Shown piece after piece: positions 10,401 through 62,780 of a stretch of DNA of 64,000 nucleotides. Made by a program: the position numbers and the translations under genes. The notes beneath the pieces were generated by a model. That model was not told the origin of the DNA, searched no databases, and saw nothing but the letters and a program-made list of their open reading frames with translations. Positions within the stretch are counted from its first letter, which is position 1; each line of letters starts with the position of its first letter. The stretch lies in NCBI RefSeq assembly GCF_050947875.1, contig NC_134568.1, forward strand, positions 211,115,632 through 211,179,631, in the 5' to 3' direction. The DNA comes from Dermacentor variabilis. Its lineage: Eukaryota; Arthropoda; Arachnida; Ixodida; Ixodidae.

Positions 10401-13400
10401 GTAACTGGCTGCTGTGCAATTACCTCACACTTGCATGTAATTATACATAAAAGGCATTAGTTGCTGCTCTTGCTTTAATTTTTTAGCACTGTAGCACACA
10501 TGTACCAACATGCACACAAGGAACAATGCACTCACAGGAGCTGGTCATTAAAAAGTGAGACAGTAATCAATCATCGCAAATATGCACATACATTCATTCT
10601 GATAACATGACTAACTTCTACACCAAAGCAAAAACTAACAAGAATAACCTGAAAAACAAATGTCCAGCTTGCTGTTCCTAATAGATGACAAGTCAGCGAA
10701 AAGTGTCTGATAGAGCTGGTTTCAGGTAAAGAGAACCAATCCAGGTAAAGAGAACACATGTAATTCTTTTACAACACATTCAAAATCAAGCAGTCAGGAT
10801 TCTCACCTTCAGTCCATTTCATTGCAGTGCCTCTCAACTACTTCGCAATTGCCGAATATGTATTAACAATTACTGAACTGTATAAATTTCATCTAGTAAT
10901 CATATTGTATCGATCTCTTAATAACCCCTTGCCATGTAACATACCAAGTGGATTCAAACTTGTCAACGATAATACAACTGGATTTGCTTTCTATCACAAT
11001 TTGCTTTTAAGTTTTAATTCGAACTAACTACGGCAGACAAACAATCCACTTGTCTTGCATATCACTTTGGAATCACCTCCAGACTCACATCAAGCAAACC
11101 AGTGTGTTATCTCACTTCAAAAAGGAAGTTTTTTTTTTCTTTCTTATTAGATCACTGATTTATTCCTTCTCACGTTTCTCACACAAACACTTAGGCACTC
11201 AATTCTGAGTTATGCTTGTATAATATACTATATGTTACTGATATTCTGTATGTCCTTCTCATTTCTTTAGATATCATTTCCAAATAGTCTATAATATCTA
11301 TATTTTATTGTAGTATTATCTATCAGCATAGTCTCTATTATTATTTTGTATGTTAAAGCAATACAGTCGATCCCGGATATATTGAACTCAAAGGGGATCG
11401 CGAAATAGTTCGACATATCGATAATTAGAAATATAAAATATGGATGTCAAAAGCTTCTCTAACAACTCCACACATCTCAAGGCAGTTTCCCGATGTCGTG
11501 ACTAACGGGAACTTACCGATCTATGCCTCCAAGACGCATAAAAAAAACAAACAGCGCTATGACCAGAGCAATTTATTTCGGAAGAAAAAAATCTGTGACC
11601 TTTGCTTGCTTTTTCTTCTGCACTATCAAGTTCATTAAGCTGTCCTCAAGCTTGTTGACAGTGTCCAAATGAGAAAGGCCAGCTCCTTCCATTGTGCAGC
11701 AACAGCGGCGAATGACGCTGAAAGCTGATGCAAGTTCAGCTGCAGTGAATGGTGGTTGGTCCCCTTCGTCGGAACCTTCGCCGCTGCTAGAGCCTGCGTC
11801 CTCGTCACCCATGATGCCAGCCACAATCTCTGCGTCAGCGTGATACGCTACAGCTTGCACGTCGTCGTCAGCGCTGACGAAATCGCGTGCTGTAACGCCG
11901 CCTGGGATGGCCGAGAGCTCGCGAAAATGCCACGGCGACCGACGACTTGTTCTTGTCAGCCTCCACCCGTGGAATGATGTCCCCCTTTGTTGAAAAATCC
12001 AAATTCCTGCATTTTTTCGTGGCCATGGCTCTGGAACACGTGCCAAAAGCGGAAAGAAAAACGCACTGCACCACACGAGTCTCAAGCCTTCGCGTTGGCC
12101 TCGTGAATAAAAGGAACAAAGCGAATCGAAAGACGCACCGCTCCGCGTCTCCGCACTACCACAAGCCCAAGCTGCACTGACCTCGTTCGTCTCGCTGCAC
12201 CAGCGGTGCCAGCCAACCAAAACACAGGAAACGGGCGCCTGCAGTCAGCGTGGTTTCCCCCTCCCGCTTCCCTTTCACACCCAATCGCACTCCAAGTACT
12301 CCTTGTCACGTGCCTTCTACCCACACGCCCCTTTCTCAGAGTGCGGGGCGGCGCGCGTGACATCGCGGGAACATAGCGAGAGCTTCATGAGGAAAAGTGC
12401 ACTTGCGGGGGTAGGATGCGATGGGAGAAGCGCACTTGCCGGGGCGCAGCTCAGCACGGAGTCAATATGTCAATCGATACATCAATATGCCGATGCACAG
12501 TTCTATATGCGCGAACAATAGCGCTATACTTTTGCATGGGATTCCCAAGGGGATTTTTCAACTGTTCGATATAGGCAATAATTTGATATACAGTAGAACC
12601 CCGCTGTTACGTTCCTCACTGCTGCGTTTTCCCGGCTGCTACGTCGTTTTCATCCGGTCCCGGCATAGCTTCCATAGGATCCAATGTATAAGGAACCCCG
12701 CTGTTACGTCGTAGCTGTGAAAACGTTCCCGCATGATACGTCGCAACTTAGCCCCCCGAACCCGCCTGGGCTAAAGTAGTCAACGCGCTCCAACCGCCAT
12801 TTTGGCTTTTGACGAGTTTTGGCCGGGCTTGGCTATGGAACTGGCTGCAAGAAGCCGCACGCCAGTTCGAGAGGCCGCCATCGAACTGGCGTGCAGCTTC
12901 TTGCAGCCAGTTCCATAGCCAAGCCCGGCCAAAACTCACCAAAAGCCAAAATGATGGTCACATACGACAGAGGCGCTGCATACGACGACTACGTCGCCGT
13001 GGATGTTGTCGTCGTGACGTCAGAGTGTCAGAGCATCGCCGAGATCGTTGGAATCTGGGTCGCGAGTGAAGTCGCAGACTGCGATGCACGAGCCGCATGA
13101 TGCCGGGGAGTTGCCAAATCGTAGCTTTGGAAAAGCCGTCGCGGCTCTGGACCTCCTCCGCAGGTACGTCGCACCTCACAGCGACGCTGACAGCAATGCG
13201 CCTTCCAGGCTATTGAGAAACATGTGGTGATTCCTAGCGAGCGAAAGAAACGGCAAGCCACAATTCTGGACTTTTTTTTAGGTCCTAAGCGCACCCTGTG
13301 GAAATAAATTGTCTATAGTTGAAGCTGCACTTTTTTTCATTCATTTTCGGAGCTTTCCTCACTGTTGCATTTTCCCGGCTGTTACGTTTTTTTTCCCCGG

Positions 13401-16400
13401 TCCGGTGAAAAACGTATGAACGGGGTTCCACTGTATCCGGGTTTGATATATCTGGGATCAACTGTATCGCATACATTTACATATATTTGTACTTATGGAA
13501 TTAGATTGTATTTTTGTGTTTTTTGTATTGTCTGCTTTTACTGCCGTATTTACTCGCATAATGATTGCACTTTCTTGTCAAAAAAATTTACGCAAATTCA
13601 GGGGTGCGATCATTACGCGGGATTAAATTTCCCACGAAAAGAAATGATTTTTTTTTTCATCTCGCGTTTGCTGCAGGATGACAACAGATCATCAAATAGG
13701 CAGCTGCCGCAATATGTAGTGAGGGACGCCAAAACAAAAATGGCGACTGGCAGAGCAAGCCGAACGCGATTTTTTTTCTTCTTGTGAGTACATTTCGTGC
13801 ATTGAAACAGTTTCTACCGTATCAGTAATGAATAATATCATTAATAACGGCAACTTTGCGGCAATAACGTAGCCATGTTCACTTTGAGGGGACAGAAACA
13901 GATGGGTACACTTAGCTGCCAGTGACATAGAAACGCATGGCGGGCATACTGCGGAAATTGCGGCATTTTTCTTCGCTACTATCCTAATACAGCACGTTTC
14001 CGCCAAGGGTGGGCGAATATGTTAGCTGTGTTACAAGAGTCGGCGTATGAATAGGGCACACTTCTAATGTATCAGTGTAAACATGGCTACTATGGTTGCC
14101 GCTCGCAATTTGTTGCGTGCCCACGAGTGTAGACAGGAAGAATCGAAAGGCGCCTTTGCTGTTATTGTTGACCACAACCATTATAAAGCCTACACATAAT
14201 AAAGGAAAGTTTGGCTGTAGCTTTTTTTTTGTCATGGAAGTGCGGAAAAGTGATAAAAGGAATGAAATGGGGCATTTGCTTAAGAATGTTTGGTGCGTGC
14301 AGACCGCTTGGTTTGTCTTGAAGAGTTGTTTGTGTAGCATTCGACAGATGGTAAGCGCGATCATTATTGGCTAGACTTGGCACATAATATATTGCTGCGG
14401 CAAGTTCGGTGTGCGATCATTACACGAGAAATTTTTTAAAAATCGAATTTTGACGACAAAAGTCCATTTTGCCGACAAACTACAGGGGTACGATCATTAG
14501 GCGAGTGCGATCATTACGCGAGTACATACAGTATTTTATGCACCTCGCTCGTATTATCCTGCTGTAAAATATTTTTATTAGTTTTATGCACTAACAGGAG
14601 GTCCCCTTACAGCTTCATGCTCTGGGACCTCCTTCTGAATGTTCATTTATGGAACACATTTTGTAACTGAATAAAGTATTCTGATTCTGAAAGAAAAAGA
14701 TTAGTTTACATTTAGTATGATCAGTATCTTCACAGGAAGAGCCAGCAAGCTGCCATAACAACACTAGCATGTACACCTGCCTCTTTAACATGAACAAAAA
14801 AACAAGAGGTGCCAATGTACACCCCTTGTGTACAGAACATCAGCATGTACACAGCTCTAACAAATGAAGTACCAAAGTTAAGCCTGGCTACAATGAACAC
14901 CTTTGTAGCACTAAATACGTTCACTATATCAGAAGTTCACTATAATTCAACTTGCCCTCAAAACTGCCAATAAAGAACTGAACAAGGTACAGAAGAGATG
15001 CTTCATATCCAAAAATGACACACACTGCGCTTACTGGCAGAAATAGATGACCAAAGCATGGTTAAGTTGCGTTGACCCAGCAATGGCACTTAAAAGGGTG
15101 TCAACGTGTTGGACATTGTCTTAGGTGAAGCCCCTGGCTGAAGGCCTCCCCGTCCGTAATTTGCTGTGCCACTTGAAAATTGCTTCATCGATGATGTTCT
15201 CCAAGACATCTATGCCAATATTAGCCACGATAGCCTTCCAGTCTGTCTCACTTGTCAGCATGGCCTATATTTACCGCCTGTGTCCACAAAACTGAGCTGA
15301 TCTTTGCAGACAATCTCCAAGTAGAAGCAAATGCCAGCTTTCTGAATGCAGCTTATTCCTGAAGGCTTTGGGAAGAAAATGTCCTTGGGGCTCATAAACC
15401 TCTCACATCCCGATGCTCACATATACGTCTTGAAGGTCACAAACCATTTCAAGAGTGCTTCTTCAACACGTTTATATGTGGCCTGATTTAGCCGCTTCCA
15501 AGAACTGCAGCCACCATTTTTCACTTACAGTCATCCTTATCCTCCCTTTCTCCTTCAGTATGGTCAAGATCAAACTTTGACAATCCATATTTTTTTTTTT
15601 TGCGAATTTTGCGAATTTTGCAATCATGTCACAGCCATGATTGGTTGTGACACACAACTGCGTTGGCAGCGCATCTACAAGCCATAAATTAAAGAAAAAC
15701 TAAAGTCAATCAAGGTGCTGCACTGATTGGCTGCATTGTATGTAATGTAACATAGGGGCTCAGTGCAGTCGCATCCCTTCCCCTAGCTCGTTAAGGCACA
15801 ATCATGCCACGGTTCCTTCCATTTATTGTAACTGAACTAAGCAGGTTACCAGGTCGTTATAAGAGGTCAGCTCTCTCATAGGCTCCTCGCAAAACTTTTC
15901 GATTGTGGTTCACTGTTCATAGAGGATAATAATAATATTTGGGGTTTTACGTGCCAAAACCACTTTCTGATTATGAGGCACCATAGAGGATGGAAGTTCA
16001 CTTTAAATGGGATCGTTTTATGTGGGCTCGACTATAAGTGGAAAGCCTGCAAGCCAGTATGATGAAGGCAGCAAACAAGCTTTCCACAAAGCCTAGTTTT
16101 ATAGCAAAGAGCAGTCTTTCAGAAAACATTCAATTAGCTATGGAGCTGTGAAAACTACAGTAATCAGTAGCTACTGGCCTCTTTTGCACCACACCTCAGA
16201 AAGTTCTGCTCCTGCCGAGTGCCACAAAGCACGCCCGATCAGCAGTCTGGAGAGGGGGCTGGTGTCACTTGCTTCACCCACGTATGACATGATGAGACAT
16301 GACGACATGACATGATGAGTCAGCAGCGGTGCTACCATGGCTCTCACGTGCATTGCAAGTCATTTTCGAAGCGGTTTCATAGCACAGTAAGCAGCAGTAG

Positions 16401-19400
16401 CCTTGATCAGCAACAGCAATCTTATAACCAGCAGCAGCAATTGACCAAGATAGCTTTTCACTGTTTCAAGTGTTACTATCACAAATAGAACAAAGAGCTA
16501 CCGAACTTTTTTTAAGTTGAGCACAGGAGGAGGAGGAGGAAAGGATGGATAGTAGTACTGGGGTTGTATTCTTGACTGGTCACTTTTCAGGATAGTACGT
16601 ACTTCCCTTTCCGCACAATGTAACATCTAACACATCACTTCACTGGGAGTGACAGATGTCTTGAGGACAAATTCTATAACAATGCAACGTGAGAACATGA
16701 CTAGATGTGAGCATTTTTAGGCAAATCCACTTCTGCTGGCTTGGTCACTCAAAGTGTCTGTATCTGAATGTGTCTCAACTCAATACGTATCTGGAACTGG
16801 TTGAAAGGGCAAAACTTCTAGAGGATAGGAAAATAATGCCGCACAATGGAGCTCACAAGGTGCAATAAACTTGTTTTATGTTTCCTTCTAATATACTGCA
16901 TTTTAATCTCCTGATTTACAACACACAGTGAAAAATACAGCAGCGGCATATCATAAAGGGCCAGTATAATGCATACCTCCAGAGTGTCCAAGTACTGAAG
17001 TACAAAATGCCACACTTGGGAAGCTGTGTCCATCAGCAAAAACTGAAAGCCCTCCATTGTTATCAAAGGGGAGCTTCCTTCGCCTTCTTCCCTGCATTCA
17101 CATGATCCACTCATATAGCATGGGTGGAGACAGAGCAAGGAAACTGAGGAACTAGCAACACCTATACAAATCTCTCTTTTGCACTAAAGTATTTGTGAAT
17201 CACAATGATTGTTTGTTTAATATTGCAACACACTTTACACTAGCATGCACATAGATCACATTAGAACTTGTTATTATTACAAGGGGTACTGATATTTATC
17301 ACAATTCGCAGATTTCAGATACTATAAGATATAAGCAAGGACTGCACTGCTACTCGGGCTGAACCATCCATTCAACCTACGTAACTGTACTCATTACGCA
17401 ATAGCAATTGCCAAAATTGTGTTTTGAAGATAAAACCGCCTGAATTGCTTCACTGAAAATCTACTACTACTAGAAGAATCAACTACTCTTGGAATCGATG
17501 TGCAATGATTCCCAATTTATATTAAATGCAATGGCGGAGATTTCGAGCCTATTTTACTACTCAGTAAGTCTAAATGCAAGGTCATATAAGCTACTTCTCA
17601 CTTGCACAGTACCCTACATCCTGCACAATTCGCTACAACCAAGGGCTTAACTTCATAGAACCAAAGTAAGACTAAACAAGTCTTTGATGGCAGTTTACAC
17701 ACACTAACATGGACCAAACCTAGTGCAAAATGCTGCTTGATCCAACTTTCAGAATATGATGTATGTAAAAGCCCAGCCAGCTAATTAAAAACAAATTTCA
17801 CTGTGCTCTTCACTGGAACAACCTCTCTAATATTTGTCAATCCTCCAGTAATAGTTGATTTTCAATGAAACAACCCAGCTAGTTTTATTTTCAAAACACA
17901 AATTTCTTACTAAAGGTACCATGTGCTCACCATATAATACCATGGGCATTTTAGAAAACAGCAACACCTGCAGGAGAGACTTCATCGATGGCATGTGAAC
18001 CAGATGACAACCCGAAGAACTGTACGGCACAATGCATGCATTTTGCAGGGTTTAAAATTTTTGCAGTTCTAGACTGGCATTTCACACTTTATCCATTAAA
18101 CAGGCAGCAGCCTGCATAACTCACTACATGTCTACAAGTCAGGGTGCATGAATGAGATAATGCAGCTTTAATGAAATACTATTCAGCACGCCAACAAACA
18201 TAACCTCCCATGCTATGAAGTGCACTCGCCATGTTTAATGCACTGTTTGTATCTTGCTCCTTTTGCATTTTTACATATGTTGCAACGTTGATGTCAAAAA
18301 GTTGGGACCAAAATCATGAAAGTTTCATCACTGTCTTTGATTTCTGGCCATGCTTATGCCTTGCACTAGCAACACTGATATTCAGACTACATACAACAAA
18401 CTGCAATGGCTGATGAGAACATGAATAACCACAAATTTTACTTCATACTACGATTAAAAACAAGAAGCCAACAACTACTCCTTCAAGTAACCTAACACAA
18501 AAAGGTAGGTCAAAAAATGCGCTGCAAAACCAATAGTATAACTGATCGCATAGGTGTAGCTAAACAGAAGCTCGGAATATGATGTAAAGTCGCAATGAAT
18601 GCTTTCACCTCTTCAAAGAACAAGACCAGGGCTTCAAAAATCTATGAACATATCTTTGCTTGCAAATAATGATTATCATCCAAAGCCTTCGCTGTTCGAG
18701 TCTGCAAAATTACGGCAAAAATTGATGAGACAGCGCATTCAACCTTCTACCCAAGTTTGCATAGCTTCTGATGCATCCTACTACACACAAAATGTGTTCA
18801 GACTTCGCACATCAGGCATGCTGATGATGTGCTTTCAGAGCCAAAACAATAAACCCAACATGACTGCAACGTGCTCAGCCTGTAAGTTGTTGAAAGGAGC
18901 AAATCAGTTCTGCGGCAGCTGATCAGGTCGAGGAAGATTCATGAAAGGAAAAAATTGTCTGCAGATATTGTCTAAAAGAGACCCACATGAATTTAGTTTG
19001 TAGTTTCTTGCTACAGTTAGGTGGACAATTTTTAAAAAATTGTCTGCAGATATTGTCTAAAAGAGACCCACATGAATTTAGTTTACAGTTTCTTGCTATA
19101 GTTAGGTGGACAATTTTTTCCTTTCATGAAACTTCCTCCACTTTGCAAGTTTCTGCAGAACCGATTTGCCATTTTCAGCGTCCCTGTGCTTCGAGTTGTC
19201 AATTAGTTTGGCCTCGCTTTGCGATCTGCTGGTTTCCTGGTTAGCTTGGATGGCAGAGTGACCACTTCGACAAGCTGTTGGTCATGTGTTTAATCCTCAG
19301 ACCATGACAAATTTTTCTTTCAACTGCAAAACCGCAATGTATGGCAATTTTTCCCTTTCCTGTTGAAAGTGGCAATATGATCAGATGTTGCTGTCAGTGG

Positions 19401-22400
19401 AAACACTAAGAGAGGGCACTGCATGTCTGAGTTACACACAGAGATACAGTTTAACTAAGACTCTGAATTGGTCCCTACACTACATTCACTGTCTTTTTCT
19501 TATGCCCTGATTTACTAAGTTTGCAATCAGTTATAAGGATATCAGTATGTTTAACATTTAACCCTCAGAAAAATGAAATGAAACCTGCTTAAGAGGAAGC
19601 TTTAGCTCAGGCCCAACTACAACGCGGCCTATTCAAATACATGTAAAACGCAAAAACGTTTTTATGAGATAACCCCTGGACCGATTTTGATGAAATTTGT
19701 CGCATTTGAAAGAGAAAGTTAAATTCTAGTGACTGTTGGAAGCGGAATTTCGATTTAGGGCTTGAATTTTCTTAAAACGATTTTCAAATATTTGACCGTT
19801 TGAAAAAAATAGAAGCATGAAGTTTATAAATTCATAGCTCTGCATCAAGAACTGATATCGCGGTTCTGTAAATGGCATCCATTAGATCATTCAAAGCAGA
19901 CAAATTCAATATGTCATTTTACATCTTACGTGAATTTGTTATGTTGGTTACAACGGTTTTGCAAAAGTTGTATTTCTCTATTATTAAATTTTTTTATATT
20001 CATGTGTAACATATCAATTTTGTCCGCTTTAGATGTACTATTAGATGCAATTCACAGAATTGTATTATCATTTTTAGTGGTTAAGTTACAGAGTTGTAAA
20101 CTTGATAGTTTCGTTTTTTGAAAATTTTCGATTTTTGCCAATTTTTAACAAAAAATTGACAATCTAACTCAAAAATTCGAAACCAACAGTCACTAGATTT
20201 TAAGTTTGTCTTTTAAATGCAACAAACCTCGTCAAATTTGGTGCAGTGGTTGCCGAGAAAAACGAATTCTCCTTTTACATGTATTTAGATAGGAGCACTT
20301 GAGCTAAAGCTTCCTCTTAAACCCCAGTGGAAGACCCTGACTGAGCCATACACAAAGCACTTCTCTGAAGGTATGTTTGCTTCGCATGCTACTGACAAAA
20401 TTTCTGCCATTGGTAGCACTGTTTGCTTCACCTTCTCATGTCATGTGGCAGCTGCATGGTGCCTACAGAAAGCTGGCCTAAAGTTTGCCTTTGAAAGAAA
20501 CAAACGAGGGAAGTTCATGCCACTTGGGCCTGCGATTGTGTCTACCGTTGAATTTTTTACTACAATGCACAGGAATAGGAGTAAAGGAAAACAAATACAT
20601 TTAACAGCACACCGCAGAAAATATTTTACTTGAAGACCCCTCAGCTTTAGAAGCACAGCACCACTTCTAGCAAGGAAGGAAGGAAGGAAAGCAATTCTCG
20701 ACGTGATGTAGGCAGAAGACGTGACAGTCAAGGAAGCTGACGCGGCTTGGGAAATGATTGTAGAGTGACAGCTAAAAGCAGAAAAGTGCAGACACGAGCT
20801 TGAAGCTGAGAAGCACAGGCGAGAGGCAGCGCAATTGCACACTCTTAGGATGAAGGAGCTTGATCGGGAAATTCAAGTACTTCAATGGCAGCGAGCCCGA
20901 GGCTATTTTCATACCTTCAGGACAGGTGAAGATATCGTTATATTTCTCTCTGATTTTGAACGAGTGTGTAAAGAAGTGTCAGCCGCGATACGTGTCAGCC
21001 GGGACCTCTGGTCCAAGAATTTGGTCCTGTTGCTGCTGTCTAAAGCCACAAGTGTTCTGGAGTGATTGTCCAATGAAGAAGCGCAGGATTACAGCAGGAC
21101 TAGGAGGGCTCTGTTGAGCCCTTTTGAAGCTATAAGTCAGGCCGACTTCGGAGGCCAAGATGATAGCGACAACGCTGAGCTTGTTGAGGACAGACCGCCT
21201 ATTTAGATGGCTACTAGCTCAGGAGGCTTAGGAAATGCTGCGGTGCCACTGGTGAACACGTTATGTGACGAGCGTTAAAGCAATGTTGTTTCGCCATCTC
21301 GAGAGGCGGCTGTAGGAACAGTGGCTGGCAGTGGCTCATTTGATTTTGATGGCAGCTATAAAATGTGGCAAGTTGAGGAAAGACCTCAGGGCGAGCCGGC
21401 TAGCGCAGATGGCATCGGATGCAGTCATGTTCTGTCAGAGGCACAAACATCTAGCAATGACCATGAACCTAGCTTGGTTGTGCCGCTTAGAGCGATATCG
21501 TTGCAACGAGAAGGCAGTGTACCTGGGAGTACGAGTGCCAAGACCGCAAGCTTTGTCAGCCACGCCAAGGGCAAACGACGAAGGTGCAAGCCAAGATAGT
21601 CAGAGTCAGGCGGCGATACGAGCTGGGTCAAGTGCACCAACAGCCAAGACATTAGGAAAAAGCTGAGTGGGCTACATCCGAAGCTTCGGCAGTTGTCAAA
21701 ATCTAGAATAGGCGTGACGTGCGTCGAGAAAGGAAGAATTTCACAGAAATTCAGATGCCGCACATGCCACCTGTCCTCTGTGGTGTCAAGGCATTGCAGG
21801 CAGGGGAATGTAGCGAAATGTCGAGTATGCTCGAAAGTCTGATACAACAGCCACTCCCTTCCCGAGGGTAAGAAAGGTGACTGCCTAGAGGACAAAGGGA
21901 CAGCGTGCACGTGGGTCCGTGAATGCGCTGTTCTCCCAGAATTTTGAGGCTGCAGGTCGAAGGCTACAGGTGCTTCGGGCAACTCAGTTTTGTTCTTGTA
22001 TCACGATTGGACAGTGCGCAGAATCACAAATTTTCGACCCATTCGAGCGCATATGAAAGGGCGTCTTTGCACACACTGAGCGATACATGATACAGTATCG
22101 CCGACTCAGCGGCCATACAAAACAATGTGTTTTGTATCCACAGAAACCTTACCAGCTTATTGCATAGATATTAGTTAACACGTAGTGTTTCCACTTTTCG
22201 TCGCGTAAACACAGCGGTGCGTCATCTCCATCGGGCGGCCCGGCAGAACAACAAGCCTCAAAGATCAGAACGGCCTCCAAGCGCCCTGTGCGTTTGTGCG
22301 TGAAGCCACATCAACATCAACATCATTTCAGTGCCATGCTAGAGAGCGTTGTGGCATTGTGTAATGAAGGACTTGCATCATGCCGAAGCTCGGATAAAAA

Positions 22401-31400: not shown

Positions 31401-34400
31401 GGTGAGCTTTCCTGCAACACCCTCAAAGATAGCGGTGGCACAATGGGCATTCCTGACTGCTGCGATTGCACCGAGGGCGCCACTTGAATGTAGCGGCACA
31501 TGCACGCACCGGCTTGGCTAGTTTAACAACATCAACGATGCACTGCATTTACCGCACTGACTCCACCTCGGTGCCGCTGGATGGATGGATGTTACGAGCG
31601 TCCCCTTTGAAATGGGGTGGTGAGTTGCGCCACCAAGCTCTTGCTATTACACTGCCTAATGTCCTACCTAGGTTAAAAACGAAAAAAACGGAAGATGGTT
31701 TCCCATAACCTAATTTTCTGACCCCCTATTGTGAACTTCTGCTCTGCGCCTGCCTCGCCTCGCGAGGACTGGTGGTTTGCATCGACAAAAGCATGCAACA
31801 GCGCGCGCTCACTGGGCTCACTCATAGACACCTTGGCAGATGCCACTTTAAATTTTGTTAATGACGGCATTTCAAAATGCTTCGATTGACGGACTTGGAG
31901 ATCGCAACAGAAGTAGCGGCCAAACGAAGACACTGCCGAGGTTGATCCTGCAAGCGCTGATGTTTCCCTGTTCCCGACTTCAACTGAGGCTGTTGCTTTC
32001 GCCCTTCTATGCCGCTACTGCAGCGCAATAGCCGGCCAGTCACTTGTGGATCGTTTAGACAATGTTGAGGCCTTCATGTTTAAGCACGCGGCTGCCAATA
32101 AGAAGCAGGCTACACTGCTGCAGTACTTTCAACCAAATAAATAAATACTTTGTGCGAAGCTTTACGTGCGTATTACCTGCACCACGATTGGGGTGCTGCC
32201 TAGGCTAATTGTGTGCGGCGCAATAGACCGCGTGCTCACGGCAGACGAAGTCGGCGCGGCATAGGCTAATTACGCGCGGCGCAACCAAACGCGTGCTCCA
32301 AACAATGAACCACGATTGCGCCCTTGGTTCATTGATTGACTTGCAGAAGTTTCTATGCATGTTTTAGGTGATTGTATACATCGAATTCTGGCTATACCAA
32401 ACTATTTTGCGATCACCACACTGTTCGATATACCGAGGTTCGACTGTATATCTAATAAGTGTATGAAATTAGGTACCTAGATGTAAAATAAAAAATCCAG
32501 TAGTGCTGTGTAAATAAATGCCTGCTTTGGTTTTTGCATAATTTAATTGCTATTGCCAAAACACTGCAGGTAATAGTAAGATAGCTTCATGGTGAAATCG
32601 ACAAGTTAAACAACGAATTAAATCCTGAATTAATAACAGCAACTATATGTGTGGACAGAAGAAAAATCAGGCAAAATATTTTTGCACAAAGAAAGACTTT
32701 TCTCACTTAATGTGCAATGCAATGTCTATGAAGCAACAAAAAACTGTGCAGCACAACCATCATGGGGCAAAACTGAAAGGACATTGCTACAGAAAATCTA
32801 AGGAAAAAAATTTTGAATTAAATTGTGTTTTACGTGCATGTGCTCTTATTTTCTCCTAATTAGCGCAGTCAGCTTTCCTACATATTTATGGCTGCTGTTT
32901 AAGTTGCCTAAGTTAACGGCTGAACTATAATGTTGCAACACAATAGGCAAACCTTCGAAAGCCCTTGAAGAACGTTTCTTCCCAGCTAATACGACAGAGT
33001 TTGGGACTACAAGCATCTCGTACTAGGAGCCCACAATTTTGGGCATAATGCGCAACATCTTCTGCATACAAACGGCCTTGCAAGTCATGCTACAAATGGG
33101 ACAGGCTCAACTGTGAAACAAATGCTGTTTTGTTTAGAATGCCTTCCTCTGCTCCATAAGACCAAAAATGCTTGAACTGTTCTGTTCCGGACAGGTAACC
33201 GTCATTCTATTTTTCGGTTCAGGTTCAGTTCAGGTTCAGGCACATATCAAGAATACCAGTTTAGGTGTGGGTTTAGTTCAGGCCAATGTTTCAGTTCAGC
33301 ACCCTTGTTTTAAAGACATGCACTAATAGCCATGCAGATTTCCAGAGCCTAACAACAGTGCTTACCCTCCAAGGAGTGCTATCTGGATGTTCTTTCTAAA
33401 CACTGCACTTAACGACCAGCCTGGAAGTCCACCAGGAAGGCTGGAGTCTGTCCAAATGTGCAGTGCAGTGAGTGCCTCAAGTGCCTCCAAATGGTCTCTG
33501 CACAATTTCAACAGAGTGGAATGACTAAATCAACGGGGGGGGAGGGGTGGGGAGAACAAGGAAAACTGAATACTTCAAATTACAAATCAAAGGAAGACAC
33601 TTGATCTACATAGTGACGTAGGCAATCACATACTTTCAAGGCCAATGTTATGGTGGCTAGAGGAGTAGGTGTGCCGACCGACTCGTCTCGAGCGTAGTTC
33701 ACTACTTCTCCATATCACGTCGCAAAAATGATGCTGCGCTTTGTAGAACAGTAGAAATGTGCTGAAGAGCCCACATCTGGCACTTCTGGCAGACTGTGCG
33801 CAGTAAATAAAGCAGGCAGAGGGGGGAATTGTCATCAGTGGCCGTCAAGTTCGTGCAGTGATAGGTTACCGATGTCTGTTTTGTAATTCCGTGTTTAGAA
33901 GTTCCTGAAAGATTTGGAAGCATGCACGACAAAAATGTGAGTGCCAAGGTTAGTGGAAGCTCATCTCCGAGGACGAATCACCGGAGGTCACCTCAATTAA
34001 TGGCGACATTTCTGCTTCAAAGAAGATCAACATGTATACTTATTTCTTCACTCTTAACTATAGGTTAGGGGGCCTAAACCAGCATTGTTCTCGGCTCCAA
34101 CAAGAGCAAAAGTGGACATCAGCTCGGTAGCAGATGACACTTTTACCAACAGTTCCTCATGCGTAACTTCACCTAGGTGGTTAAAGAAGAGATGTTTACC
34201 GAAGATGCAATGATATAGTGCTTCCACTCATCTCTATAGTATGAAGCCCGAAAAAAGAAGAGAGAAACATTATTTGGGACTACGTTCACAAAATCACCAC
34301 GAATTCATGCTCGGAGAGGACACAAGATGCTGCAAATGAAGCTACCTGTGCAAATTGCAACAACTTCCAAGATTTCTGTGCTGGCACTTGCAGAGCTTGG

Positions 34401-40700: not shown

Positions 40701-41820
40701 GACTCGTAGTGGTTACCAGGGATAGCGAAATTTCGCAACACAGCAAAATAAAGAGAACTCGTGGTGGCCACAAACAACTCTTTATTGGTACAAAAGATGG
40801 GCAGCTACTCCTTTCTCAAAGTGCATGGCTGCTACGAAAGAGGCACTATGAGGAACGGCTTATCTTCGCGTGCAATTTCTTTTTAGACGCGTTCCTGTCG
40901 CAATTGGTTGATCCCTTTTACATAGAAGTGCAGCCTGGTCAGCACATAGAACTTGGTCAACTCTGTTGTGAGCGCATCCTAGTGCTGGCTGCAGCCTAAG
41001 GCATAGCCGAAGTTCTCCTTCACTAGCAACATTACATCCACTATGCTGTCACTGCAGAGTTTCTGTGGGCTAAAGAACATGCACAGTGAAGATGTCCTCC
41101 AACTTCTTCACTGCCCTGAAAAGCTCCAGCGAAGGATATAACAACCCTCCCTTGTCGCATGTCACAGCGAACTCAGAGTTTCTGCTTTCCGTATTGGGGG
41201 TTTCCAAAAGAAAGGCCTTGCAAGACATGCAGTAATAACACTTCAGAAACTTTCGAGCAACATACCCTGCCATGTAATGTATTAGACGGTCGTCGCTCTT
41301 CTGCTCCACCAACTCTCTGTGCTCAGCACTGCAGGAATACTACGAGGCATGCGCTCGGCTGAAGGTTTCCTTCCTCAATGAGATGGTCGATTGCAGCAGC
41401 CCTGGCTTATTGTGCTGGAGCATCTTGCGCACTCAGGAGAGAACTCATTTCTCCACTAGCTCCATTAAGGTCAGCATTGCCTGAGCGTACTATTTTCGCA
41501 AAAGTTATAAAAGGATAGGTAACGACAATGAGAAACTGCGTTGGTGTTGGGTGGACATTAGACCCACATGATTGCCTGACTATAGCGAAAAAGTTTTCCA
41601 GCGAATCCTGGCTTAACCTGGATGTCATAATATACCTAAATCCCTGGCTGACACCATAATCCAGCAGTGATAATGTGCCGGATATCGTCACCTTTAGGCC
41701 ATCTGCAGTAGGATCGCTTAAAAATCCACCTAGTCTTTTAGCGTGTTTCGCACACAAACCGCACATGTTTCGTCGAGTTTTTTGTCTTGGCGGTGCAAGT
41801 TGCGTTCCCAAATTCGCCGT
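40700..41820 (-). pseudogene. P-element-like (THAP9-type) transposase remnant
   Basis: On the minus strand 41407-41811 encodes MTSRLSQDSLENFFAIVRQ and HPTPTQFLIVV, the conserved block near the C-terminal half of P-element/THAP9 transposases. After a frame break, 41070-41312 gives DDRLIHYMAGYVARKFLK, the 'YIAGW.ARK' motif. Further right-to-left fragments (DSIVDVMLLVKENFG, KFYVLTRLHFYVK) reach about 40850. The N-terminal THAP finger and most catalytic residues are missing, and frames are broken, so it is dead. Confidence 0.7.
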
Positions 41821-42414
41821 GTTTATTCGTCTTTTGATGCGGTGAACAACGGCTAGCTGCTTTTCTTTTTTGCACTTATATCCTGTTTCACAGCCGGGAG
41901 CGAAGCAGTGTCGTTGCCGTTGACGTTTCGACGTTCCTACTTCTCACGTGTTCGGCCGACTGCGCGCGAAACGGACTCGAACGGTAGGTTGAAACACCAA
42001 AAAGCAGTCAACGTCGCGAATCAAGCCCGCACGAAGAAGCGCGCGAAGCACATTATTCTATGGCGAAGCAGCGGAGGGAGCCAGCCCACGCGACTACAGC
42101 GCCGCCACCGAAATCCGCATCCCGTCCACACTCGCCGCCTCGCTGCAATGCATAGGGCGCTCCGGCTCCTGAGCCCACTGCCCCCTTCTAGAACACCATA
42201 ACGTAGATAAGTATCTGTCTGGTAAAAATAAGCCATGATTAACGAAGGAGGTTAATGAACTCGGGGGCAGTGTGCGAAAAGCGCTTACTCGCCATTTTTC
42301 TTGTTTATTTATAGTTTTACCGTGCCCCTCCTGTGCGGCTTCACCTCCGGGACATAATTTCTACTCCAGCATTTTTTTTTTTTTTTTAAAGAGAGACCAC
42401 TTTCAGAGACATCA

Positions 42415-42878
42415 CGCAACACTACAGATTGAACAGATGTAAATACCCACCACCGCACGCCAAACTAAACAAGAAACAGGCGGTTGCCTGGAGGCAATTG
42501 CAAACACACACATATCCTAACCCGGCGATCCTTCACCTCTGCTACCCCGACATTTATCCGTCCGACGACTGTAAAGCGTGCGGAGCCAGAGCGACGCTGC
42601 AGCACATGCTGTGGGCATGCGCCGGTAGCCAGCAGCAGGAGTTCCCGACGAACGGGATAGAAATGGCAGTCTCGCCATATTCTCTATGGTCTCGCACCGA
42701 GGGGCGCGTTGGGAGGCGGCCCTGCTCAGCCACGACCTCGCCGATCAACTGTGGGCCGTCCGGCACGCCGAGGAAGCCGCCCGAGTCCAAGGACTCGAGG
42801 CCGTCACCTAGGCTGGGGTGCTCATGGCCCCACCCCGCCCAAATCGCCGGACATTTTCAATAAAGTTTTCACTACTAC
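42415..42878 (+). mobile_element. 3' end of a non-LTR retrotransposon (I/Jockey-like LINE)
   Basis: The frame from 42429 reads PPPHAKLNKKQAVAWRQLQT, then LHLCYPDIYPSDDCKACG and LQHMLWACAGS. This Cys-x2-Cys...His...Cys end region follows RNase H in tick LINEs. A frameshift near 42700 moves the rest (RWEAALLSHDLADQLWAVR-like) to another frame. It ends in attttcaataaagttttc, a poly(A)-signal-like terminus next to the TTAA transposon. Confidence 0.65.
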
Positions 42879-43792
42879 CAAGAGAGAAACCTTAGCTCGG
42901 CCCAACTCCGACGCGGCCTATTCAAATACATGTAAAACGCAAAAACAGTTTTGTGAGATAACCCCTGGGCTGATTTTAATGAAATTTGTTGCATTTGAGA
43001 GAGAAAGTTAAATTATAGTGACTGTTCAAAGCGGAATTTCGATTTAGGGCTGAATTTTGTTAAAAATATTTTCAAAAATTTGAAAGTTTGAAAAAAAAAT
43101 AGAAGCACGAAGTTTACAAATTCATAGCTCTGCATAGAGAACAGATACCGCGGTTCTGTAAACGGCATCCATTAATTCATTGAAAGCGGACAAATTCTAT
43201 ATGTCATCTAATATCTTACGTGAATTTGTTACGTTGTTTACAAGGGTTCTGCAAAAGCTGTATAAATTTTTTGAGGTTCATGTGTGACATATCAATTTTG
43301 TCCGCTTTAGATGTACTATTAGATGCAATTCACAGTATAGTATTATCATTTTTCATTCACAAAACTTGTCTTCAGAAAAGTGACTAAACGAAGCAGGGCA
43401 CTTAAGTCCTGACAATGCAGTCTACGTTGACGATGAAATCGACAAAAGAGACGATGTCCTGACAGAAGAAGATAAGTTCTGTGTAAGTTTGGCACAAGCA
43501 TTTCCCGAAACAACGAAGCTAGCTCGTTGCATAAAAGCAGGCATCAAGGATAATGCTTCCAAGGAGTTCGTTGGCCCGTAGTAATAAGCACACATTAGCA
43601 ATGCAGCCAGTTTTTTGCCAATTTTTAATAAAAAATTGACGACTTAAATCAAAAATTTGAAACCAACAGTAACCAGTTTTCCATTTTTTCTTTGAAATGC
43701 AACAAACTTCGTCAAGCTTGATGCAGTGGTTGCCGAGAAAAACGAATTCCGCGTTTGCGTGTATATCAGAGCATCCGAGCTAAAGCTTCCTC
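42879..43792. mobile_element. Pack-type TTAA transposon carrying an inverted fragment of RNF26
   Basis: A copy of the 724 bp family at 19593-20316: shared cggcctattcaaatacatg, gagataacccctgg and gttgccgagaaaaacgaatt. It ends GAGCTAAAGCTTCCTC|TTAA at 43792-43796. The left end is eroded. The segment corresponding to 20076-20133 is replaced by 43356-43609, which is the reverse complement of RNF26 44042-44323. The element ends within about 80 bp of the putative RNF26 first-exon donor. Confidence 0.85.
43356..43609 (-). pseudogene. Captured, inverted RNF26 exon fragment (codons 16-110)
   Basis: Read on the minus strand, 254 bp align to 44042-44323 with about 13 substitutions, a 1 nt gap and a 27 nt deletion (44229-44255 missing, bounded by GTA on both sides). 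Shared runs include gttgtttcgggaaatgctt and catcgtctcttttgtcgat. It has no start or RING and carries early stops, so it is not a gene. Confidence 0.93.
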
Positions 43793-43796
43793 TTAA

Positions 43797-43994
43797 CCTC
43801 CTTGGCACAGTCGCTCGGTGTCGACGCAGTAGACAGCGCTACAGCGCTATCGTCAGCAACAGCATTTCAGGAGGTAAGTTGGTTCTTTAGAGAGTATGTG
43901 GAGGGTGGTAGTTGATTTTCGAAATCAGTAGTTTCGACGGTTTCGATGTTGTAACGTCTGCTGTGCTTTATGGTTAATTCGTGAATGAGCTGCT
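43797..43994 (+). promoter_or_regulatory. RNF26: Probable RNF26 5' non-coding exon, donor and short 5' intron
   Basis: Directly after the TTAA transposon end, the sequence carries a good donor, CAGGAG|gtaagt, at 43868-43879. This suggests a non-coding first exon ending near 43874, about 120 bp before the ATG. No strong acceptor is obvious in 43880-43994, so an alternative is that transcripts simply run through. No TATA box was recognised. Confidence 0.4.
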
Positions 43995-45020
43995 ATGAAC
44001 GTAATATCTGCCATTCTGTGGACATTCAGCAGCTTGACCGATGGCTGCATTGCTGCTGTGTGCTTATTTCTACGGGCCAACGAACTTCTTGGAAGCATTA
44101 TCCTTGATGCCTGCTTGTATGCAACGAGCGTGCTTCGTTGTTTCGGGAAATGCTTGTGCCAAGCTTACACAGAACTTACCTTCTTCTGTCAGGACATCGT
44201 CTCTTTTGTCGATTTCATCGTCAACGTAACCGACGCAATAGTCCATGGCAGTGTAGACTGCATTGTCAGGACTTTATATGCCGTGCTTCGTTTAGTGGCT
44301 TTTCTGAAGACAAGTTTTGTGAACGGATACAACGGAGTGGTCTCAACAGCATCTGAAGTTGTGTCGTCATGCCACAGTTTCGTGGCACTTCTGCTGAATT
44401 CAGTAGTACTGTTGTTGCAAATTCTGCCGTACCTTGCAGTTCAGGTTGGGCATTATGCGCTCTACGTTGTATCTGAGATCGCAATGTTCATTTTGACCTG
44501 TGTTATGGCGGCGGTTGGCTCCGTAGTGAGTGCGACCGTCACTACGGCTTGTGTGCTGTCGCAGTTTCTCTTCGGTCAGCCGGGAGACGTGTACACCGGA
44601 TTAGTAATCCTACTGCTGACAGCGATCATCTTGAAGATTGCTGTTCGTGCAAGAGCTCATCGAACCGTGTGGAGACGTGCCTTGCGTCTTGCCAACACCA
44701 TCACATATTGGAAGCCACAGCGGCGGCGGCAGTCCAGCGGAATGAGAGAAAGTCCATCGCCTCCTCCATTTACGATGACTTTGCGACGAACCACTGCACT
44801 ACGCAGGGACAGAATGAATCGCCTCGAGCAAGAACTTGAACAGGAACGAGAAAAACAGCTTTGCGTTGTGTGCCTAAATGAGGCACGTTCTGTCATCCTT
44901 CTGCCTTGTCGTCATTTTGCCCTGTGTACCCAGTGCCTTGGAACACTGTTTCAGCAGCAGCAACAGACATGTCCGATGTGTCGACATACTATTTATGAAG
45001 CAATTCCTGTGTATGCTTGA
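43995..45020 (+). CDS. RNF26: RNF26-like multi-pass membrane RING-type E3 ubiquitin ligase
   Basis: This 341-residue protein lies in a single coding exon. Residues 1-215 hold several hydrophobic segments (roughly 3-25, 64-84, 92-106, 125-150, 156-195 and 202-216), with no cleavable signal obvious. Residues 220-275 are basic and Ser/Pro rich. A short charged helix (LEQELEQEREK) precedes a C-terminal C3HC4 RING: C290, C293, C305, H307, C311, C314, C326, C329. The protein ends in a short conserved tail, IPVYA (human RNF26 ends NVYL). The architecture matches RNF26, an ER membrane E3 that in vertebrates organises perinuclear endosomes and modulates STING. The tick protein is shorter than the human one (about 433). 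The start ATG at 43995 is the first Met of the open frame. A probable non-coding 5' exon ends at 43874. Part of this exon (44042-44323, codons 16-110) is duplicated in inverse orientation just upstream. Confidence 0.9.
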   Translation: MNVISAILWTFSSLTDGCIAAVCLFLRANELLGSIILDACLYATSVLRCFGKCLCQAYTELTFFCQDIVSFVDFIVNVTDAIVHGSVDCIVRTLYAVLRLVAFLKTSFVNGYNGVVSTASEVVSSCHSFVALLLNSVVLLLQILPYLAVQVGHYALYVVSEIAMFILTCVMAAVGSVVSATVTTACVLSQFLFGQPGDVYTGLVILLLTAIILKIAVRARAHRTVWRRALRLANTITYWKPQRRRQSSGMRESPSPPPFTMTLRRTTALRRDRMNRLEQELEQEREKQLCVVCLNEARSVILLPCRHFALCTQCLGTLFQQQQQTCPMCRHTIYEAIPVYA

Positions 45021-52574: not shown

Positions 52575-54130
52575 TCAGATGTACTTTCTTGAAAACGCTA
52601 CGCTCGTTACTTTCCTGTCGGGAATGCTATGTCATGCTGATAACGCGCATGGCGTTTGTTACTGGAAAGTAGCGGGTTCACCGCGTTAAGGAAAGGAAAT
52701 GCAGACAAGAACGATGACGATTATTGTTGTGTGGTGAATATACACCCCAAAGGGTGCAACTGTTCTTAGAGTGTACACTCTTAAGCAAAATTACACCCTT
52801 TTGCTACACAATGATCATCTGTCATCAACGGTCATCACCGGTCATCTGTCCTGTCGGCATTTCCTTTCTTTAACGCGGCGAGCCCGGTAAAGGGTGTAAA
52901 CTCCAAAGTGACTGGGAAGTACCAGGCTCGCAGCGCTAAAGAAAGGAAACGCGGGCAAGACGGATGACGATTATCGTAGTGGGACAAGATAAGCCCCAAA
53001 GGGTGTAATTTTTTTTAAAGTGCAGAGTGTGTACACTCTTACACTCGAAAAAAATGTTATATCCCTTGGGCTCTATATCTGCCACACAACAATAATCGTC
53101 ATCTGCCTTGCTTGCGTTTCCTTGAAAACGCCGCGCCCTCTACTTTCCTGTCGGCAATGCTATGTCATGCTGATAACGCGCATGCCATTCGTTACTGGAA
53201 ATTACTGGGCTCGCAGCGTTAAAGAAAGGAAACGCATCAAAGCAGATGATAATTATCGTTGTGTGGCAGATCTATATACACCCCAAAGGTGCAAACTTTT
53301 TTAGAGTGTATTGTTGTGTGGCAGATATACACCCCAACGGGTGCAAACCTTTAGAGAGAGTGTGTGGCAGATATACACTCCAAAGGGTGTAAAGATTTTA
53401 GAGTGCACTCTAAAAACAGTTGCATCCTTTGGGGTGTATATTTGCCACACACCAATAATCGTCATGGGTCTTGTCCGTATTTCCTTTCTTTAAGGCGGCG
53501 AGCCTGGTACTTTCGAGTAACGAACGGCATAATCGGCACACAACGATAATCGTCATCTGCCTTGATGCGTTTCCTTTTTTTAACGCTGCGAGCCCGGAAC
53601 TTTCCAGTAACGAACGGCACGCGCGTTATCAGAAGGGGCACTCCAACACTCTTAAAACGGTTGCACCCTTTGGGGTGTATATTTGTCCCACAACGATAAT
53701 CGTCATCTGCCTTGCTTGCGTTTCCTTTCTTGAAAGCTCGGCGCTCGCTACTTTCCTGTCGAGAAGCTGCGTCACACTGATAACGCGCATGCCGTTCGAG
53801 ACTGGGAAGTAAGAAATATTTACACCCTTTGGGGCGTATCTTGTCCCACAACGATAATCGTCATCTGTCTGGCCCGCGTTTCCTTTCTTTAACGCTGCGA
53901 GCCCGGTACTTCCCAGTCGCGAACGGCATGCGCGTTATCAGTGTGACGCAGCACTCTCGACAGGAAAGTAGCGAGCGCCGAGTTTCAAGCAAGGAAATAC
54001 AAGCAAGTCAGATGACGATTATCGTTGTGGGACAAATATACACCCCAAAGGGTGCAACCGTTTTAAGAGTGTATGGTGTTGTTTGGCAGATATACAGCCC
54101 AAAAGGTGCAACCGTCTTAAGAGTGCATGT
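52575..54130. repeat. Cluster of inverted modules (foldback-like element array)
   Basis: Three modules recur in both orientations: cacaacgataatcgtcat (about 9 copies, 52716-54030), caccctttggggtgtat, and tttcctttctttaacgc-gcgagcc with tactttcc(t/a)gt. A further word, ctgataacgcgcatgc, also occurs both ways. No open reading frame of sense is present. It resembles stacked terminal repeats of a foldback or other TIR element. Confidence 0.85.
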
Positions 54131-60490: not shown

Positions 60491-60525
60491 CCTTTTCAGG
60501 CTGACAAGACCTGGTGGCAGCAGCA
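60491..60525 (+). promoter_or_regulatory. PRPF19: PRPF19 5' UTR splice acceptor and leader
   Basis: A pyrimidine-rich acceptor, tattgtccttttcag, ends at 60499. It is followed by a 26 nt leader before the ATG at 60526. This implies an upstream non-coding exon and an intron in the 5' UTR. The promoter and that exon were not identified. Confidence 0.6.
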
Positions 60526-61302
60526 ATGTCATTCTGCTGCGCATTGAGCAATGAGACGCCAGAGCAACCGGTGGTGTCTCCAGCATCTGGAAATGTGTTC
60601 GAACGCCGTCTCATTGCGAAGTATGTCCGGGAACATGGCACAGACCCTATCAATGGCCAGCCACTGACAGAAGATATGCTTATTGATCTGAAGGTTGCTC
60701 CAATAGCCAAGCCACGGCCACCCTCTGCTACGAGTGTGCCTGCCTTGCTAAAGGCTTTGCAGGATGAGTGGGATGCTGTGATGTTGCACAGTTTTTCCTT
60801 GCGGCAGCAATTGCAGACAGCACGCCAGGAGCTTTCACACACACTGTACCAGCATGATGCTGCCTGCCGTGTCATCGCCCGTCTCACTAAGGAAGTGACA
60901 GCTGCTCGAGAGGCCTTGGCCACACTCAAACCCCAAGCTGCAGGTGGTGGTGCTGCTGCAGGAGCTGCTGTGGAAGCTGTGGCTATGGAGACGACTGAGG
61001 AGGCTGGTGGCATGACTGCCGAGGTGGTGCGCCGTCTGCAAGAGAAGGCTGCTTTGCTCACAGCACAGCGAAAGAAACGTGGCAAGGCCATTCCCGAAGA
61101 CTTAGCCAAGCCTGAAGAGCTTCGGGCCTACCAAACGTTGGGTTCACACCCAGGCCTGCATAGTGCTGGCCTGCCGGGCATCCTAGCCTTAGACGTGAGC
61201 CCAACTGACCGTATCCTCACAGGTGGCAGTGACCGAAATGCAGCTGTCTTCAATAAGGACACTGAACAAGTGGTAGCTGTCCTGAAAGGTCACACAAAGA
61301 AG
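60526..61302 (+). CDS. PRPF19: Pre-mRNA-processing factor 19 (Prp19), first coding exon, rest beyond right edge
   Basis: Prp19 is the U-box E3 ligase and core of the NineTeen complex, acting in spliceosome activation and DNA-damage signalling in the nucleus. The exon encodes residues 1-259. The U-box is at about 2-56 ([39 protein letters not shown]). The tetramerising coiled coil is at about 80-135 ([32 protein letters not shown]). An Ala/Gly linker is at 138-152, and a basic RKKRGK at 182-187. The first WD40 blade is at about 216-255 ([19 protein letters not shown]). The exon stops after GHTKK at AAG|gtaagc in phase 0, exactly where the family continues with V-(T/S)-S. A GTG 12 nt upstream is open in frame but the ATG matches the family N-terminus. 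No later WD40 exon was found before 64000, so intron 2 exceeds 2.7 kb. Confidence 0.97.
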
Positions 61303-61808
61303 GTAAGCTAGTTTGCACATAGTGTTACTTATTGTTTCTTATCCTTGCAAGCTGCTGCTTTGCCTGGAAGATATTTAGGTGCATTAATTTCATAAGACAA
61401 TGTGTGCTGCTCCTGATGACTTCTGCATTTCTTGGAAGAAAAGGTTGTTTGATAGTGTGCACCACTGACAGAGATTTAGTATTTGTCCACCAGTAGTGAC
61501 TGCAGGATCAAAGTGCTGTGAAAAACAACCTAGAACATTCTACAGCTAAACTTTGAGAGGCACAAAATGCAGGAGCAGGGCAAAACTTTTCTAGTGTCTA
61601 AGTTGTGTAGTTCTATATTGTTTCATTACGTGCATAGGTAGAGTCTGCACTTTGAAAGGTCTGCTTAGATTTCCTGCTACGAAATTAATCTTTTATAGTC
61701 CTGGTGTTCTGTGATGTTCTGTTAATTCTGGCAGTTGTTGAGGTGAGCTGTAAATTCTCACAGATGCACCAACAATATAGAGGTAGCATTCTCGAGCTCG
61801 AAGTTATA
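61303..61808 (+). other. PRPF19 intron following the first coding exon (start)
   Basis: The intron begins gtaagctagt. No WD40-type exon was recognised up to 64000. Confidence 0.6.
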
Positions 61809-62780
61809 CTGTATTTACTTGCATAATGATCGCACTAGCATAATATTTGCACCCCTGAATTTTGTCGTCAAATTTAATTTTTTTTAATTTCTTGTGTAAT
61901 GATCGCACCCCAAACTTGCTGTAGCGATATGTCTTGTACCAAGCCTAGCTAATAATGATTGCGCTTACCATCTGTAGAATGCTACGTGAACGACTCTTCC
62001 AGACAAACCAAACGGTCTGCACACACCAAACATTCTTCAGCAGATGCCCCATTTCATTCCTTTCATCACTTTCCGCACTTCCATGACAAAAAAAAAGCTA
62101 CAACAAAACTTACCTTTATTATGTGTAGACTTTATGAGGGTTGTGGTCAACAACAAAAAAGGTGCCTTTCAATTCTTCTCGTGTACACTCGTGGGCTCGC
62201 AACAAATCATGAGCGGCAATGATAGTGGCCACGTTTACACTGATACGTTAGAAGTGTACCCTATTTATACGCCAATGCTTGTAACGCAGCTAAGATATTT
62301 GCACCCACCCTTAGCGGAGACGTGCCGTATTAGGATAGCAGTGAAGACAAATGCTGCAGTCTCTGCAGCATGCCCGCCATGTGTTTCTATGTCACTGGCA
62401 GCTAAGCATGCCCATCTCTGTTTCTGTCCCCTCAAAGTGGTCATGGCTACGTTATAATTATTGTCGCAAACTTGCCGATATTAACAATATTATTCATTAC
62501 TGATACGGAAGAAACTATTTCAATGCACGTAATGTACTAACGAGAAGAAAAGAAATTGCGTTCGGCTTGCTCTGCCGGCCGCCATTTAGTTTTGGTGTCC
62601 CGCACTACATACAGCGGCAGCTGCCTATTTGTTGACCTGTTGTCATCCCGCAGCAAACGTGGGATGAAAAAAAAAGTTTTTTTCTTTCCGCAGGAAATTT
62701 CACCCATGTAATTTAACCCTGAATTTACATCAATTTTTTTTTTTTACAAAAAAGCGCAATCATTATGCGAGTAAATATGG
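61809..62780 (-). mobile_element. TA-flanked non-autonomous DNA transposon, copy 2
   Basis: An inverted copy of 13541-14531. The left end is CTGTATTTACTTGCATAATG; the right end, reversed, is CCATATTTACTCGCATAATG, each next to TA. Shared internal words such as atgccccatttcattccttt and cacttccatgac confirm it. The open frames inside are not genes. Confidence 0.8.

Follow-up and report, generated by a model that had tools for sequence, protein, structure and literature searches.

An inverted copy of part of the RNF26 exon within a TTAA-type element of the tick Dermacentor variabilis, probably captured by repair in place

In the 64-kb stretch of Dermacentor variabilis DNA analysed here (the window), a ~0.7-kb element with long TIRs and TTAA flanks lies just upstream of RNF26; about 54-58 bp of it have been replaced by an inverted fragment of that gene's exon. 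Our reading, to which we give roughly three chances in four, is that the TTAA element came first and that a later template-switch repair, acting in place, copied the RNF26 exon into it in inverted form. This would make it a capture of the Pack-TIR type. The features concerned are collected in Table 1.

Table 1. Positions of the captured fragment, its donor gene, the host element and its relative in the window.
Feature	Position	Strand	Basis and remarks
RNF26 codons 16-110, captured in inverted form	43356..43609	-	Alignment, repeat finder
Two junction bases, CA	43354..43355	.	Match neither the relative nor exactly the donor
Donor stretch within the RNF26 exon	44042..44323	+	Pairwise alignment and repeat finder
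RNF26 coding sequence	43995..45020	+	ORF of 341 aa with C-terminal RING (Pfam); homologues
Candidate splice donor GTAAGT of a putative 5' non-coding exon of RNF26	43874..43879	+	By-eye reading of the sequence
Left part of TTAA element	42880..43353	+	Aligns to 19591-20075, 86.9% by BLAST
Right part of TTAA element, including terminus and TTAA (43793-43796)	43610..43796	+	Aligns to 20130-20320
Uncaptured relative, TTAA at each end	19589..20320	+	Alignment, BLAST; body 19593-20316, 724 bp
Nested retroposon-like insertion in the left tip of the element, 483 bp	42397..42879	+	Bounded by 8-bp direct repeat AAGAGAGA
Probable left TTAA target-site copy, with the nested insertion now between it and the element body	42386..42389	.	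Sequence

The captured fragment and its host element

Pairwise alignment of the captured fragment with the donor stretch gave 254 ungapped columns with 14 mismatches (94.5%), and thus bore out the earlier note, which had described an inverted copy of RNF26 codons 16-110 at about 94-95% identity. The captured copy differs from the donor by two gaps, one of 27 bp (donor 44226-44252) and one of 1 bp (donor 44273), and the repeat finder reported the arms 43423-43609/44042-44228 (187 nt, 95%), 43356-43405/44274-44323 (50 nt, 90%) and 43404-43425/44253-44274 (22 nt, 100%). Chance similarity to RNF26 was dismissed, since the local alignment score was 402, compared to at most 26 for 50 shuffles of the donor. 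Donor and recipient lie 432 bp apart in inverted orientation, with 245 bp between the end of the element and the donor. Only the adjacent RNF26 exon matches the fragment within the window (self-BLAST, matches >80 bp), and the capture is presumably single-copy. The captured copy has decayed: codon 46 is a stop, codon 93 contains a frameshift and codons 78-86 are missing. A protein search for the capture in other ticks, made with a 55-aa ORF spanning the left junction (43346-43513, minus strand), gave no candidate, a weak negative since ORFs of this kind are seldom predicted.

The left junction runs from element TTTTT through CA into the donor, and the right junction from donor CCA into element GTTTTTTGCC. 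No clear microhomology was seen at either junction in comparison with the single relative, and no poly(A) was present at the capture junctions. Both flanks of the fragment align to the relative, of which the stretch from 20076 to 20129/20133 has no counterpart in the upstream element, so that the replacement of about 58 bp claimed previously holds as a loss of 54-58 bp. Identity of the right part to the relative, measured from 43612, was 83.2% by BLAST.

The relative is a single long imperfect inverted repeat, with arms of ~308-322 of its 724 bp that are 78.6% identical over the best 112 bp. Its inverted termini are GAGGAAGCTTTAGCTC, both flanked by TTAA, and its predicted fold as ssDNA is -134 kcal/mol (z -13, 20 shuffles). 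The relative thus shows the combination of TTAA and terminal inverted repeats by which piggyBac elements are recognised, and a TA site combined with a longer terminus would look no different. The element is piggyBac-like by target site only, and on its sequence we take the class no further than "TTAA-type", non-autonomous. Two exact words from the element's conserved left part, a 27-mer and a 24-mer, had 0 matches each among virus and prokaryote contigs, where little was expected.

The upstream element retains an intact right terminus (GAGCTAAAGCTTCCTCTTAA), while its left terminus, as judged without a family consensus, is degenerate and split by the nested insertion. Accordingly, the earlier note's description of a TTAA transposon stood on the right side, where TTAA is present, but not directly left of 42880, because the 483-bp insert occupies the left tip there. 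Copies of the direct repeat AAGAGAGA lie at 42389-42396 and 42880-42887, and the probable left TTAA beyond the insert adjoins a T-run, where TTAA is cheap, and is weak taken singly. Since the insert's ORF (42429-42863) had no Pfam match, "retroposon-like" is a reading from the layout of the insert. AAGAGAGAAAC at 34258 had been considered as the far end of the insertion and was dropped in favour of the 8-bp repeat at 42389, which directly adjoins the start of the insert. Further to the left is a 134-aa ORF (41407-41811, minus strand) with a Pfam TNP-like_RNaseH_C match (E 3e-11), which we take to be a piece of a P-element/THAP9-like transposase.

The donor gene was assigned by a protein search that returned 15 homologues, several of them without a name. 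The top match was an uncharacterised protein of Dermacentor andersoni (98% identity), and the homologues named in their sources include "RNF26-like" of Rhipicephalus sanguineus (80%) and "RNF26" of Ixodes scapularis. A scan of 43600-44050 with bacterial promoter and terminator models, which are not applicable to a tick, gave 0 sites. The window also holds the N-terminal part of a Prp19 gene (60514-61311, plus strand; U-box, Prp19 and the start of WD40 by Pfam). Several other repeats were observed: a ~930-bp pair in opposite orientations (13547-14464 and 61857-62777, 84.6% identical), a near-perfect palindrome of ~156 bp (12798-12953, 93% identical to its own reverse complement), an 85-bp tandem duplication (18949-19118, 96.5% identical), and a region of dense short direct and inverted repeats (52584-54127), of which the tandem-repeat finder resolves two arrays only, of 46 and 90 bp.

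Age of the capture and order of events

Differences between the captured copy and the gene were polarised with an alignment of tick orthologues, in which 83 codons were compared, one of them a stop. The two differ at 8 amino acids. The window gene is derived at four of these codons, where the captured copy matches the nearest outgroup, P0003 (L at 25, F at 41, S at 95 and L at 97); a second outgroup tick, P0002, shares three of these residues, the exception being codon 41, where it carries S. At the other four (codons 21, 57, 62 and 102) it is the captured copy that stands apart, with I62 and T102 also found in distant ticks. The captured copy has thus kept outgroup residues that the gene beside it has lost. 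D. andersoni retains the captured state at codons 41 and 97. F25 is common to the window gene and D. andersoni and occurs also in the distant ticks P0007 and P0009, so the change at codon 25 can recur. At codon 95, D. andersoni has C; were this C encoded by TGT, a single base would separate it from captured AGT and likewise from window TAT, and C95 is plausible as an intermediate step between captured S and window Y.

The window gene and D. andersoni agree against P0002 and P0003 at 9 sites, and the captured copy joins them at 8. Two of those 8, sites 91 and 98, also agree in R. sanguineus and R. appendiculatus, leaving 6 informative sites. We then placed the captured copy in a tree of 8 rows (6 of the 15 RNF26 homologues, the window gene and the captured copy). 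In the best tree it is sister to the window gene plus D. andersoni (bootstrap 94/100, AU p 0.93). A position outside P0002/P0003 was rejected (AU p 0.004); pairing the captured copy with only one of the two, the window gene or D. andersoni, had lower support without being rejected (AU p 0.10 for either). By the tree and the AU results, the capture is younger than the P0002/P0003 split and probably older than that of D. andersoni.

The element differs from its relative at 46 of 461 positions on the left and 29 of 187 on the right (75/648 together, 11.6%), whereas the captured side of the RNF26 comparison carries 7-9 changes in 254. By this rough clock, which assumes two copies diverging from one master, the comparison suggests that insertion is older than capture.

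Between captured copy and gene, adjacent mismatch pairs number 4, compared to 0.71 expected (p = 0.003, 20,000 permutations), and three controls, namely the two element-pair flanks and one other repeat pair of the window, were also slightly above expectation, though not significantly so (p 0.14, 0.11 and 0.19). When only captured-side changes are counted, 2 adjacent pairs remain among 7 changes (p = 0.009); adding the two unpolarised changes makes this 3 among 9 (p = 0.002). One of the adjacent pairs is GC>AA, a signature reported for polymerase zeta (PMC6633265, in the part consulted). We regard the excess as a lead, as it was noticed post hoc and steps in the gene account better for the pair at codon 95. 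Should other captures show it too, it would provide a test of error-prone polymerase synthesis during gene-fragment capture.

Probable in-place repair and its alternatives

The sequence of events that we favour would begin with a non-autonomous long-TIR TTAA element inserting just upstream of RNF26 in an ancestral Dermacentor-type tick. Later, a fork may have stalled or a break arisen within the palindromic body of the resident element, which is itself a plausible stall site. The growing strand would have jumped ~430-970 bp to the RNF26 exon, copied ~282 bp of it as an inverted stretch and gone back to the element, ~54-58 bp of which would have been lost in the process; the fragment decayed afterwards. 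If synthesis ran leftward, the strand would have switched from 43610 to 44042, copied to 44323 and returned to 43353. The template would by then already have been copied, making possible either a same-strand snap-back or a switch between fork strands, following the four-point logic set out in part of PMC7954356.

In-place template switching is the best-supported account because the donor lies 432 bp away and is inverted, the capture looks younger than the element, and adjacent substitutions are in excess. The breakpoints, which are internal to the element, with only ~54-58 of 724 bp gone, also support repair in place. Counting against it is the absence of clear microhomology at the junctions, whereas 190 of 281 unique Pack-TIRs (67.6%) have it in the portion of the animal survey used here (PMC8277862). 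The template-switch capture in a resident transposon proposed in the earlier note is therefore retained on the strength of the near, inverted donor and the order of ages, while the rarity attached to it was unsupported.

The same anatomy could have been produced by abortive gap repair after transposase-induced excision, that is, by transposition-dependent gap filling, with no spontaneous break or fork stall. This route likewise predicts a local donor, and the survey allows it as a possible minority route (PMC8277862). According to the same survey, however, it is expected with larger deletions and with breakpoints towards the element ends (PMC8277862), whereas here the loss amounts to only ~54-58 bp of 724 and falls within the right arm, and the element appears older than the capture. 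We consider excision an unlikely trigger.

There is a much slimmer chance that the fragment was captured in another copy and that the loaded element then moved upstream of RNF26, or that the fragment is present in many dispersed copies. The genome measures ~2 Gb (2.15 Gb for the D. variabilis assembly), and in it a loaded element would need to have landed, independently, 432 bp from its own donor; the other element copy in the window has no RNF26 fragment.

A further reading concerns function, and takes the inverted repeat to be a hairpin-RNA locus whose transcript over both arms yields siRNAs against RNF26. The repeat is long and, by its predicted fold, able to form dsRNA: the RNA hairpin is predicted at -564 kcal/mol for 981 nt, compared to a shuffle mean of -269 (n = 20), but long inverted repeats in general fold this strongly. 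A comparable arrangement is known from hp-ODox1 of Drosophila simulans, in which ~200 bp of host exon lie in the arms beside TE sequence (PMC10317233, in part). However, the candidate first exon of RNF26 ends downstream of the element, so that the ordinary mRNA probably lacks the left arm, and the captured fragment is decaying. We therefore hold a working hairpin locus to be highly doubtful. A fuller version, in which an error-prone capture before the D. andersoni split gave rise to a nascent self-targeting hpRNA locus and read-through siRNAs tune RNF26, would be just as long a shot; if true, the capture would mark an early stage of an hpRNA regulator coming into being, inside a transposon and beside its own target.

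Closely spaced inverted repeats are typical of foldback artefacts, but an assembly or library foldback is very unlikely, with next to no weight in our view, given 14 mismatches, a 27-bp gap, sharp joins inside a transposon, the tree position and outgroup residues lost from the gene, which a foldback cannot carry (9 random changes would recreate both key bases, at codons 25 and 95, with a probability of ~0.00015, the sites having been picked after they were seen).

Comparison with known systems

In place of the in-house expectation that gene capture by a small TTAA-type element, with its donor less than 0.5 kb away, would be unusual in an arthropod, animal genomes offer a known class: Tan et al. 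2021, in the sections of the paper used here, report 370 Pack-TIRs in 100 animal genomes, mostly single-copy, and an arthropod capture case, Ssk-FB4 of Drosophila melanogaster (PMC8277862). Those sections ascribe single-copy Pack-TIRs mostly to transposition-independent gap filling, and note that an uncaptured element is present in outgroups for 91 of 97 primate Pack-TIRs (PMC8277862). The tick element has the workings of a Pack-TIR, and we regard it as most likely one.

Seven Pack-TIR criteria were taken from the part of the survey's Methods used here (PMC8277862); the tick element agrees with three of the seven and conflicts with none. For an internal non-TE sequence of 100-5000 bp within the same TIR element, we found 254 bp; for an identity of >=90%, determined there by BLAT, we found 94.5% by pairwise alignment; and for a captured/parental length of 80-120%, we found 254/282 (90%). 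The Methods also require flanking parts that reach at least 10 bp of the element termini (PMC8277862), and no TE <100 bp from the parental copy, where, on the upstream side, the tick element ends 245 bp before the donor. They further ask for a unique best parental hit genome-wide, for which self-BLAST of the window (matches >80 bp) lists the adjacent exon only. Regarding retroduplicates, defined as intronless copies of multi-exon parents, the donor lies within one continuous ORF, so introns cannot tell a retroduplicate from a Pack-TIR.

The tick case resembles animal Pack-TIRs in its TIR element, its internal copied fragment (254 bp, compared to a median of 224 bp), its exonic content (13.4% of captures in the survey sections used) and its near cis donor, 0.43 kb away, where 160 of 281 unique Pack-TIRs (56.9%) have a donor within 15 kb (PMC8277862). 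It also shares a small internal loss of the element, with a gap of ~8% of the element compared to a median of 4.6% (PMC8277862, same sections), and a capture apparently after insertion. It differs from those surveyed in its tick host, its TTAA long-TIR element, its lack of clear microhomology and the insertion nested in one end. In the sections used, 87.2% of Pack-TIRs are hAT or TcMariner and none is reported in the survey's bird and insect reference genomes; the word piggyBac occurs 0 times in the main text (PMC8277862). Among the matches listed from the open-access literature, we found no report of a tick TTAA element that had captured a gene, which is no proof of absence from print.

Ssk-FB4 is similar in that arthropod gene sequence lies in a long-inverted-repeat (foldback) element, but it is multicopy, transposed and transcribed, whereas the tick element is not known to be any of the three. 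Plant Pack-MULEs likewise hold gene fragments within a TIR element; they belong to another superfamily and are often multicopy, while the tick element has its donor adjacent. Short-range template switch events are smaller than the tick event, in which ~282 bp would have been copied over a jump of 430-970 bp. The tick event is nevertheless like short-range template switch mutations, as described in part of PMC7954356, in having one inverted local stretch between two switch points, for which one fork is possible. Drosophila hairpin-RNA loci similarly place inverted host-exon sequence beside a TE, but the portion of PMC10317233 used here reports Dcr-2-dependent siRNAs for them, compared to a predicted fold only for the tick locus.

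The tick case is thus added to the animal Pack-TIRs, whose range it would extend by a tick host and, perhaps, by the TTAA type. An older state of RNF26 is preserved in the captured copy, and the capture probably lies on the stem of species with assembled genomes. Dermacentor assemblies include D. andersoni, D. albipictus, D. variabilis and D. silvarum (PMC12341941, in the part used), and the order from insertion through capture to decay is directly checkable across assembled species.
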